Position numbers and translations under genes: made by a program
In this document: positions 7,772-9,226 of the stretch, piece after piece
How the letters are laid out: each line of letters starts with the position of its first letter
Numbering within the stretch: the stretch's first letter is position 1
Source of the DNA: an uncultured bacterium
GTDB taxonomy: Bacteria; Patescibacteria; Paceibacteria; UBA9973; Zambryskibacteraceae
Assembly: GCA_903918125.1 (NCBI GenBank)
Contig: CAIXDB010000043.1
Coordinates: forward strand, 1 to 9,260
DNA length: 9,260 nucleotides
Direction: 5' to 3'
The notes under the pieces: generated by a model
Told to the model about the DNA's origin: nothing
The model's database searches: none
What the model saw: the letters and a program-made list of their open reading frames with translations, nothing else

Positions 7772-8404
7772 ATGGAATCCATGACCCCATCTGTAAGTGA
7801 AGTAAAAACGACTACTGCCGGTCAGATCGACAAGGCAGTTTCTAATTACCGGGCGTTGCTTGAAAAGCACGCTCCTGAGTTTGGTGCCGAGCCTGTGCAG
7901 ACGGTGCTCGGCCAATCCGAACTTGCCGGAGAAATGTTCGACCTGTTCCGGCGACGTGTGGAAGCCGTGAGTAACATCATCACGCGACGAGTGAAGGTGG
8001 ACCGGACACGGACACCGGAAGCAGTCTTGGCCGCCACCGGTCGGAAGCAGTACGTAACCGACAATGTTGTTGCCACAATGCCGAAAGGCGATGGCAATGA
8101 TGTCACCGTGCACTTCTTCAAACTCGACTTGTCCGAGCGAAATGGTTACATTTCGGACAACGATTTGGAGAAGGAGTTTGACCTGCGCGGTCTCAAACCG
8201 GCGGATCCGTATTCGCCCGCAGCAGTCAATGAAGCCGATCCGGTTTTTGCCGACGAGCATCCCAATGCCACGCACTGGAAGGATGCCAACGGCAAGTGGT
8301 GTTTTGCCACGTTCCGCCGGTGGCGCGGCGGGCGGTACGTGGGCGTCTACCGCAACGACTTCGACTGGGGTGACGACTGGTGGTTCGCTGGTCTTCGCAA
8401 GTAG
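7772..8404 (+). CDS. DGR variable (target) protein with diversified C-terminus (210 aa)
   Basis: This is the target of the diversity-generating retroelement. The start is ATG 7772, since AAAAGGAG at 7756-7763 sits 8 bases before it; the in-frame ATG at 7727 has no ribosome binding site and lies in a hairpin. Residues 1 to about 130 form a soluble, helical region of no recognised family. From about residue 135 the chain has a DPYSPAAVNEADPVFADEHP block, then HWKDANGKWCFATF, and ends WWFAGLRK. This is the form of the short variable domains that close CPR DGR targets. The aromatic and G-L-R ending resembles C-type-lectin/FGE-like folds of known DGR targets, but that is inference. The last 34 codons hold the variable repeat. 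Twelve residues differ from the template: C177, F178, R182, R185, G186, G187, Y189, G191, Y193, F197, G200 and D202. There is no signal peptide or membrane segment, so the binding partner and location are unknown. Confidence 0.88.
   Translation: MESMTPSVSEVKTTTAGQIDKAVSNYRALLEKHAPEFGAEPVQTVLGQSELAGEMFDLFRRRVEAVSNIITRRVKVDRTRTPEAVLAATGRKQYVTDNVVATMPKGDGNDVTVHFFKLDLSERNGYISDNDLEKEFDLRGLKPADPYSPAAVNEADPVFADEHPNATHWKDANGKWCFATFRRWRGGRYVGVYRNDFDWGDDWWFAGLRK
8300..8400 (+). repeat. DGR variable repeat (VR)
   Basis: The 101 bases at the 3' end of the variable gene align without gaps to 8733-8833 (offset 433). There are 22 mismatches, 19 of them where the template has A (11 to G, 6 to T, 2 to C). 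The template has 30 adenines here, 11 unchanged. The other three mismatches are at 8371 (C to T, silent), 8389 and 8392. The last two lie in the adenine-free block TGGTGGTTCGC-GG-CTTCGC near the 3' end, the expected place of the initiation-of-mutagenic-homing sequence (IMH). The 5' boundary could be 8300 or 8304, because the first four positions include three A-to-N changes. Confidence 0.95.
8378..8400 (+). other. Initiation of mutagenic homing site (IMH) in VR
   Basis: The last 23 bases of the VR match the TR end except at 8389 (T; G in TR) and 8392 (T; C in TR). Both changes are silent. In characterised DGRs the VR has an IMH and the TR a slightly different IMH*, and the difference makes homing one-way. 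The pattern here fits that arrangement, and the block contains no adenine until the final CAA. Confidence 0.65.
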
Positions 8405-8457
8405 TACTTCGGTTTAAGTTACTCGGATCTTTTTGATCCTTTGGCTTTGAACCTTTG

Positions 8458-8500
8458 TCCCCCGTTTTTGTTCAGAAATTTGAACGAAGCGGGGGATTTT
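8458..8500 (+). terminator. Rho-independent terminator of the variable protein gene
   Basis: TCCCCCG (8458-8464) pairs with CGGGGGA (8490-8496), and GTTCA (8470-8474) with TGAAC (8481-8485). A TTTTT/GAAG stretch between them can form U-A and U-G pairs, and the loop is GAAATT. TTTT follows (8497-8500). It lies 54 bases past the stop of the variable gene. It should separate the target message from template RNA transcription. A role as the hairpin that sits next to VR in some DGRs is less likely at this distance. Confidence 0.8.
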
Positions 8501-8610
8501 GTTATGCTGAAAAAGGTAGTAGGTGAATATCAGTATGTGTTGATTGATACATACCACCGAATCCAGTATCCGTATGTCGAGAGTGTTTGAGATTATGATT
8601 TCAGACAGAG

Positions 8611-8619
8611 TGGTATACG
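8611..8619 (+). promoter_or_regulatory. Possible promoter of the template RNA
   Basis: TGG followed by TATACG (8611-8619) matches the extended -10 form with four of six box bases. No good -35 box is present at 16-18 bases. Transcription would start near 8626, about 107 bases before the TR, and run to the terminator at 8848-8870. The call rests on position and box similarity only. Confidence 0.3.
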
Positions 8620-8732
8620 AAGACTCTTCAAAAAAGAAGATACTTGGTGTAGGGTGCTAGCGCATTATGATGCGGAATACGATTCAAGCCGGAGAAATTT
8701 CGATGGCTGGTGGCATGGAGGGCACTCTATAC

Positions 8733-8833
8733 AATATTGCCACGTTCAACCGGTGGAACGACAAGCGGAACGTGAACGTCAACCGCAACGACAACGACTG
8801 GAACGACAACTGGTGGTTCGCGGGCCTTCGCAA
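8733..8833 (+). repeat. DGR template repeat (TR)
   Basis: This is the invariant donor copy for the VR at 8300-8400. It is rich in AAC codons in the frame of the target (nine before the IMH*), plus GAC, AAG, AAT and ATT. AAC is the usual DGR choice because changing either A never makes a stop codon and gives access to many amino acids. One AAG (8763-8765) could become TAG, but in the present VR it is GGG. Twenty-eight adenines lie upstream of the adenine-free IMH* block (8811-8831). The copy is not part of a convincing gene, although its frame is open. Confidence 0.95.
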
Positions 8834-8839
8834 CTCTCT

Positions 8840-9226
8840 TTATTTCTCTCCCTTTCCGGGGGAGTTTTTTGTTAACTGTCCTTGCAAACCGCCGAGCATT
8901 TTGCCCGCTTCGTCTACCTTTAGCGAAAGCGCGATATATTTTTTATCATCAAGCGATTTCGTTTCCCACAGCACAAGCACAAGCAGCTTGAGCGTGTCGA
9001 GTTTGCGTATCGCAAGCCGCACATAGGGCTTCTTTTCTTCGCGTTGCAAAAACGCTGCGGCAAAAGTCGCCTCCATTGTCTCTATAAACAAAGTGTCTAT
9101 CCTCTCGCCCAGCGTGTAGCGGTGGAGTTTTGGCAATGTAGAATGGTACTCATGCCAAAGCAAATAAGCTTGTTTGATATGCTCCAACACGGGCAGGAGA
9201 GTCCTGCGGGGGGGGGTCCACTCCAA
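8840..9226 (-). CDS. avd: DGR accessory variability determinant, Avd-like four-helix bundle protein
   Basis: Avd forms a barrel-shaped pentamer that binds the DGR reverse transcriptase and template RNA, and is needed for cDNA synthesis and homing. The 128-residue frame has the family signature: an N-terminal helix LPVLEHIKQAYLLWHEY (11-27), then LPKLHRYTLGERI (31-43) and a second helix. The long helix LAIRKLDTLKLLVLVLWETK (71-90) follows, then a tail with SLKVDEAGKMLGGL (101-114). The basic surface (R, K and H) fits RNA binding. The start is uncertain. TTG at 9226 gives the full frame, and GTG at 9190 would give 116 residues. An ATG at 9242 would be in frame if the run of nine G at 9208-9216 were one base shorter. 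The gene converges on the TR, and its last codons overlap the TR terminator. Transcription through its end would produce RNA antisense to the TR. Confidence 0.9.
   Translation of the reverse strand: MEWTPPRRTLLPVLEHIKQAYLLWHEYHSTLPKLHRYTLGERIDTLFIETMEATFAAAFLQREEKKPYVRLAIRKLDTLKLLVLVLWETKSLDDKKYIALSLKVDEAGKMLGGLQGQLTKNSPGKGEK
8848..8870 (+). terminator. Rho-independent terminator after the TR
   Basis: CTCCC (8848-8852) pairs with GGGAG (8860-8864) around a TTTCCGG loop, followed by six T (8865-8870). It lies 14 bases past the end of the TR and would end the template RNA. It is inside the 3' end of the convergent avd gene, where it encodes the tail N-S-P-G-K-G-E-K. Confidence 0.75.
9193..9216. 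repeat. Nine-G homopolymer next to a 6+6 palindrome at the start of avd
   Basis: GCAGGA (9193-9198) and TCCTGC (9202-9207) form an inverted repeat around GAG. It is followed at once by nine consecutive G (9208-9216; nine C in the sense of avd). The run lies between the ATG at 9242 and the conserved first helix of Avd. A change of one base would switch which start codon is in frame. It is also a typical place for a sequencing or assembly error. Confidence 0.7.

Follow-up and report, generated by a model that had tools for sequence, protein, structure and literature searches.

How is a diversity-generating retroelement (DGR) controlled when the gene of its accessory protein carries a simple-sequence repeat at its start? 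This question is raised by the end of the window, as we call the whole stretch of 9,260 nucleotides that was analysed, where positions 7772-9260 are, judged from the sequence, a DGR. The element is likely Patescibacterial, and the cassette likely rewrites part of its own protein gene. DGRs in CPR bacteria and phase variation by repeats are each already known, and Paul et al. in 2017 reportedly described DGRs of Patescibacteria (CPR). What is new with respect to an earlier note on this DNA is the homopolymer at 9208-9216, the head-to-head overlap between avd and the reverse transcriptase (RT) gene, and a repeat that likely controls avd.

The identity of the element is best seen in its two repeats. 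The variable repeat (VR, 8300-8400, plus strand) is located at the 3' end of the target gene and the template repeat (TR, 8733-8833, plus strand) lies downstream; a repeat finder returned the same pair. Aligned without gaps at an offset of 433, they differ at 22 of 101 positions, among which 19 are TR adenines and none is a VR adenine, which reproduces the alignment of the earlier note. Its count of 28 mutable adenines has to be corrected, since the TR contains 30 adenines over 101 bp and 27 in the 97-bp core. Within this core, 16 of the 19 mismatches fall on the 27 adenines (hypergeometric p ∼1e-8). The non-A mismatches are C to T at 8371 and at 8392, and G to T at 8389, two of the three being near the 3' end of the repeat; in BPP-1, the IMH/IMH* differences also sit near the 3' end of the repeat. 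The same preference is found in relatives: pooled over 22 TR/VR pairs (21 relatives' loci and the window, L038 being omitted), the share of TR bases that differ in the VR is 327/568 for A, 28/498 for C, 14/568 for G and 9/346 for T, hence 51/1412 for the non-A bases, with 30 of the pooled differences (13 of them at A) corresponding to an N in the VR. A same-strand TR was present downstream of the target in 22 of the 38 relatives' loci, at a distance from VR end to TR end of 411-514 nt in 21 loci and of 1665 nt in L038. The recurrence of A-specific differences in relatives, together with the presence of avd and of an RT start, supports the DGR call that had been made from the window alone.

The target gene (7772-8404, plus strand) encodes 210 aa from the ATG at 7772, with a longer ORF opening at 7727. 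The protein is composed of a helical N-terminal part and a C-terminal part with a C-type-lectin-like model. It has 783 homologues at E≤1e-3; a precomputed Pfam domain was absent from the best 120 of these 783, and an alignment of the window protein with 34 of the best 120 showed variable VR positions at the C-terminus and a conserved N-terminal part. Foldseek returned nothing at E≤1e-3 for the target, the sole matches of a PDB sequence search were myosin light chains (E 0.055 and worse), taken as chance, and PADLOC gave no match for either the target or avd. The scan for the target, restricted to one genome per species, yielded 38 loci whose titles name Patescibacteria-type candidate lineages or a plain 'bacterium'; we take the lineage names in these titles to belong to Patescibacteria. 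Fifteen of the 38 target loci (e.g. L012, L021, L028 and L030-L036) show no avd in the fetched flanks; they are candidates for remote targets or relics, and some of these contigs simply end. Viral contigs contained no relative of the target and one relative of Avd (L139), so they lend no support to a viral origin. L139, an IMG/VR contig, displays the same type of avd and RT with a (GA)19 repeat; it could be a mobile copy, or bacterial DNA that was classed as viral.

The avd gene (accessory variability determinant) occupies the minus strand next to the TR, its body frame running over 8840-9226. This ORF matches NF033474 DivGenRetAVD (2.5e-13), phrog_3206 (1.9e-11) and PF22296 bAvd (1.2e-7), the NCBIfam and Pfam scores falling under the curated cut-offs, in agreement with the Avd-like gene that had been noticed beside the TR. 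Its homologues number 1730 at E≤1e-3, and all of the 120 listed carry PF22296; a PDB sequence search with avd gave no match. Further on, the N-terminus of RT (HTYQDII...) is encoded at 9240-9260 on the plus strand, where the contig ends within it. With a PSSM made from the profile of 128 RT N-termini, HTYQDII scores 20.6, and the runner-up among the 15,278 seven-residue words of the window 8.6. The RT, whose absence the earlier note would have held against a DGR, thus starts inside the window itself. An RT is present somewhere in the genome of 30 of 37 relatives and was found in none of the other 7.

This arrangement is shared by the relatives. In the 38 target loci searched by tblastn, avd is on the strand opposite to the target in all 23 avd-bearing loci, and RT follows avd directly on the strand of the target in 21 of them, the stretches of L003 and L020 ending first. 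The order is therefore target(+), TR(+), avd(-) and RT(+), which places avd and RT head to head. Among the loci of the wider set, RT is on the opposite strand at the 5' end of avd in 164 of the 164 loci where it was found (one placement sitting at the very limit of the position rule), and an RT match was absent from the fetched stretch in 3 of 167 loci. Eighteen of 19 RTs from relatives contain YADD together with a GNLTSQ/GNVTSQ motif (L025 is cut short), the latter motif being presumably a mark of DGR RTs. Searched against NCBIfam, all names returned for these RTs were below cut-off, while PADLOC matched 79 RT-related models with one relative's RT, the best being a general RT model. A predicted intrinsic terminator (8844-8874, plus strand) lies just 3' of the TR and consists of a hairpin at 8844-8864 plus TTTTTTGTTA, within the 3' coding end of avd. 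By eye, a hairpin and a T-run are found close behind the TR in 22 of 23 loci, with L038 as the exception. If this terminator works, the TR would be transcribed as a short RNA of its own. The same DNA encodes the C-terminus of Avd (NSP..GEK), a motif kept in many of 19 aligned Avds, and 8844-8874 likely serves a protein and a terminator on opposite strands. Five Rfam matches near the locus (up to E 1) were all below gathering and were taken as chance. Elsewhere in the window, 4247-5095 is an ORF with an ATP-cone domain followed by a Mrr-type restriction endonuclease domain, and a partial ORF at 3-170 (minus strand), reading MEIRNIAIIAHVDHGKTTLTDA, seems to be the beginning of a translational GTPase, for instance TypA/BipA.

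Window-type loci differ from the BPP-1 DGR by an avd that is antisense between TR and RT, by the head-to-head overlap with RT, by the simple repeat and by the predicted terminator directly after the TR. In BPP-1, the target is of the C-type-lectin type and avd is co-directional. Shared with BPP-1 (mtd, avd, TR, brt), as presented in passages of PMC6642488, are the TR, the VR at the end of the target gene, the RT and Avd. The likely host group and the cellular location are shared with the CPR DGR clade 2 of Roux et al. 2021, for which passages of PMC8144416 also describe targets devoid of recognisable conserved domains. The same passages agree with the statement of the earlier note that DGRs are known in CPR bacteria. 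The word Avd is absent from the main text of PMC8144416, and these passages mention neither an orientation of avd nor a repeat.

The overlap between avd and RT contains a run of nine G (9208-9216; C9 in the sense of avd), a candidate phase-variation tract. Across the 38 loci and the window (535,554 bases), 23 runs of at least eight G or C were counted and 21 of them are at the avd/RT junction; the remaining two both belong to L013, beside a second DGR. This second DGR-like cassette (L013:12500-16200) comprises a target-like ORF (13435-14277), a co-directional avd-like ORF (14404-14805) and an RT ORF from 14805, the target and avd labels coming from reading the ORFs. One of its tracts, a G10, stands directly before the ATG of the avd-like ORF, and the other, a G9, is part of the 17-nt spacer that separates TTGCCA from TATAAT upstream of an ORF at 12555-13433; transcriptional phase variation by these L013 tracts is possible.

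The junction was then read in a larger collection of 193 loci (the 38 target loci, L049-L202 and the window), of which 178 have avd and 162 were usable; left out were 15 loci devoid of avd, 5 duplicates, 6 truncated ones (window included) and 5 with N at the junction. The loci read are the best avd matches (L049-L078 and L140-L162) plus 100 picked down the E-value lists with some rows skipped. A simple repeat is present at the junction in 141 of the 162 relatives (mono- 123, di- 15, tetra- 2 and pentanucleotide 1) and absent in 21. Control tiles, matched in size and drawn from these loci, contain a repeat in 24 of 8590 cases (di 11, mono 6, tri 6, penta 1), a difference with a Fisher p of 5e-258. 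No junction repeat (0/141) has a unit of 3 or 6; considering the non-mononucleotide repeats, units of 3 amount to 0 of 18 at the junction versus 6 of 18 in the control, for a Fisher p of only 0.02. Poly-C, (CA)n, (CT)n, (GA)n, (CAAC)11, (CAAT)7 and (AGGAC)7 are found at this one spot in different relatives, which suggests that instability, and not particular bases, is the kept feature. The replacement of the G-run by (CA), (CT), (GA), tetra- and pentanucleotide repeats also disfavours a role as ribosome-binding site of RT. As an outgroup, 12 phage stretches were fetched, with 40 listed and 169 RT-match records, which may not all be DGRs. In the 5 with a recognised avd (four by model and L207 by its annotation as a four-helix bundle, 7 of the 12 records giving no avd), this gene is co-directional with RT and has no repeat at its start; the 12 stretches together (67,806 bases) contain 4 repeats by the same rule, none at the start of avd.

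An RT motif of the type H-x-Y/F-x-x-I-I was found in 128 of the 162 loci, and the avd start was read opposite its first residue; tests anchored on the His cover 85 of the 162 loci, 34 having no motif and 43 another residue. Wherever the first codon of the motif is CAT, avd has an ATG opposite (9240-9242, minus strand, in the window), which is likely its start as indicated by the codon constraint in relatives: the His is encoded by CAT 84 times and by CAC once, compared with 983 CAT and 658 CAC in the rest of RT (p 4e-17). Read onwards from this ATG, the frame of avd stays open as far as the repeat in 75 of 76 loci; the two alternative frames do so in 13 and 14 of these 76. The conserved ATG opposite the RT His and the open frame up to the repeat indicate that translation of avd most likely begins before the repeat.

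The reading phase differs between loci with and without a repeat. An in-frame upstream ATG is present in 21 of 21 repeat-free loci versus 44 of 141 repeat loci (p 5e-10), and the latter share does not differ from one third (p 0.66). Among the 97 of 141 repeat loci that have no in-frame upstream ATG, 4 have a GTG/TTG and 93 no upstream start at all. A start after the repeat exists in 42 of these 93 loci (ATG 3, GTG/TTG 39), and 51 of the 141 loci lack any ATG, GTG or TTG in the frame of avd, both before and after the repeat. The body of avd is nevertheless uninterrupted in 92 of the 93 loci devoid of an upstream start, so these loci do not look like decaying genes. With the His as anchor, the repeat-free loci are in frame in 8 of 8 cases, and those with a repeat are distributed as 16 in frame and 34 and 26 in the other phases, which is slightly uneven (p 0.04). 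The count of upstream ATGs and this anchoring replaced a cruder rule that chose an ATG at 30-75 nt (66 of 98 loci; 11 in frame, 30 and 25 in the other phases). Three features of contingency loci are thus found at this junction: a repeat within the reading frame or at its start (141 of 162 relatives and the G9 of the window), a unit that is not a multiple of three, and, between species, in- and out-of-frame alleles of an otherwise intact gene.

In the window itself, which the contig end truncates at the junction and which stands outside the 162-locus set, the C9 tract puts the ATG at 9242 out of the body frame of avd, and the frame of this ATG stops after 30 codons. The starts offered by the body frame are a TTG ahead of the tract (at 9226) and a GTG behind it, and no ATG. 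As assembled, avd of the window is probably off or low, a phase call that would be altered if sequencing had missed or added a single base in the tract. Given this in-frame TTG and GTG, and the post-repeat starts in 42 of 93 loci, some production of Avd in the 'off' phase is possible.

How repeats and phases are distributed among relatives was followed on the avd tree. Presence and type of the repeat carry a strong signal (12 changes versus 20.0 and 10 versus 17.2, 0 of 300 shuffles being as low in each case). Tract length gives no detectable signal (64 changes versus 67.8 ± 3.1; 42 of 300 shuffles as low), and the same holds for tract length modulo 3 (45 of 300). The ON/OFF state shows a weak signal (33 changes versus 37.8 ± 2.2; 5 of 300 shuffles as low). 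Phylogenetically independent pairs were only 6, typically 3 as expected, 0 against and 3 tied, an underpowered comparison (median p 0.25). Between relatives with a flank identity of 82-89%, L050 has a near-empty site, L052 a (CAAC)11 and L140 a (CAAT)7, the flanks of the repeat-free L050 and of L140 being 88.5% identical. In the same vein, L080 has C9 and L085 C8 at a flank identity of 87.4%; tract length is equal in the close pairs L076/L078 (91.0%) and L077/L126 (89.5%). Homopolymer lengths of 8-13 could be off by one, as they come from single assemblies with one genome per species. Regarding occurrence, avd was detected in 143 of the 383 genomes in the class to which the L011 genome belongs and in 104 of the 379 in its phylum (240 and 275 are without).

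Other roles for the repeat have to be weighed against a switch in the avd frame. It could act on transcription as part of the RT promoter or leader, and perhaps of that of avd, with a length that tunes spacing. The tract is indeed upstream of the RT start (after the repeat, an in-frame RT ATG exists in 78 of 114 loci, a GTG/TTG in 12 and none in 24), and both L013 tracts, inside a promoter-like TTGCCA/TATAAT spacer and before the second avd, are compatible with such a role. Spacing control would, however, permit units of 3 or 6, while none was seen in the 18 non-mononucleotide repeats and 6 in the 18 of the control. It also leaves unexplained the in-frame ATG of every repeat-free locus and the conserved ATG with its open frame up to the repeat. 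We therefore regard a purely transcriptional switch as unlikely, although a transcriptional effect and an effect on the avd frame may coexist.

Another option is that ribosomal or transcriptional slippage yields some Avd at any tract length, so that the repeat would set a dose and not a switch. Long homopolymers can slip in transcription or translation, and the intact avd bodies of nearly all loci devoid of an upstream start would be accounted for. This proposal is made quite improbable by the di-, tetra- and pentanucleotide repeats (18 of 141), which do not fit a homopolymer slippery site, and by tract lengths that vary with no detectable tree signal instead of being held at one length. Finally, the locus could be an ordinary DGR where the tract is a by-product of a proline-rich Avd N-terminus or of the head-to-head overlap, devoid of any regulatory role. 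Passages of PMC8144416 already report CPR DGRs and a CPR-only DGR clade, and in some Avd relatives the poly-C encodes prolines (many aligned rows show PP). Yet a proline-coding function would hold the frame, which 97 of the 141 repeat loci contradict by having no in-frame upstream ATG; the other repeat units do not encode proline runs, and the enrichment at junctions over control tiles would be left aside. We consider such a by-product without regulatory role very improbable.

The reading that we favour is that avd is a phase-variable (contingency) gene whose slippage would switch the whole mutagenesis machine on and off, and the pattern across relatives makes it very probable. Since avd has a simple-sequence repeat at its start, it is likely phase-variable, and mutagenesis therefore likely switches on and off; the location of the repeat in the head-to-head overlap implies that it may control both avd and RT. 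To our knowledge, known contingency loci gate surface or modification genes, unlike the present case, where the switch would act on the helper gene of a hypermutator. Phasevarions are phase-variable DNA methyltransferases, in which a repeat switches a gene that alters others. The proposed system is similar in that a repeat-switched gene alters others, but the effect would be directed mutation, not altered methylation. With contingency loci as described by Moxon et al. (in passages of PMC3521204), it shares a repeat near the 5' coding end, a unit that is not a multiple of three, a near-random phase and a length that changes between relatives.

In this mechanism, replication slippage would add or remove a repeat unit and shift the frame of avd. 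When in frame, full-length Avd would be made and would work with RT and the TR RNA, leading to an A-mutagenic cDNA that replaces the VR. When out of frame, a short peptide and little or no Avd would be produced, and the target variant would be held fixed. Cells in the ON state would thus diversify a C-type-lectin-like binding protein until a later slip freezes a useful variant. The requirement for Avd is drawn from the BPP-1 literature and not from the Patescibacterial group: Avd is described as essential for cDNA synthesis in passages of PMC6642488 and for retrohoming in passages of PMC10053308.

Contingency loci and DGRs are presented in passages of PMC3521204 as alternative routes to diversity; here, these two alternatives appear stacked. 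No report combining a DGR with repeat-based phase variation was found among titles, starts of abstracts and a few passages, most subscription papers being outside our reach. At a larger scale, we lean towards a two-tier diversity engine across Patescibacteria, in which a slippage switch would gate a hypermutator and heritable diversify/freeze states would lock in a binder. If true, a heritable and reversible Avd switch would bear on how the cost of a targeted mutator is limited and on how a useful DGR variant escapes overwriting.
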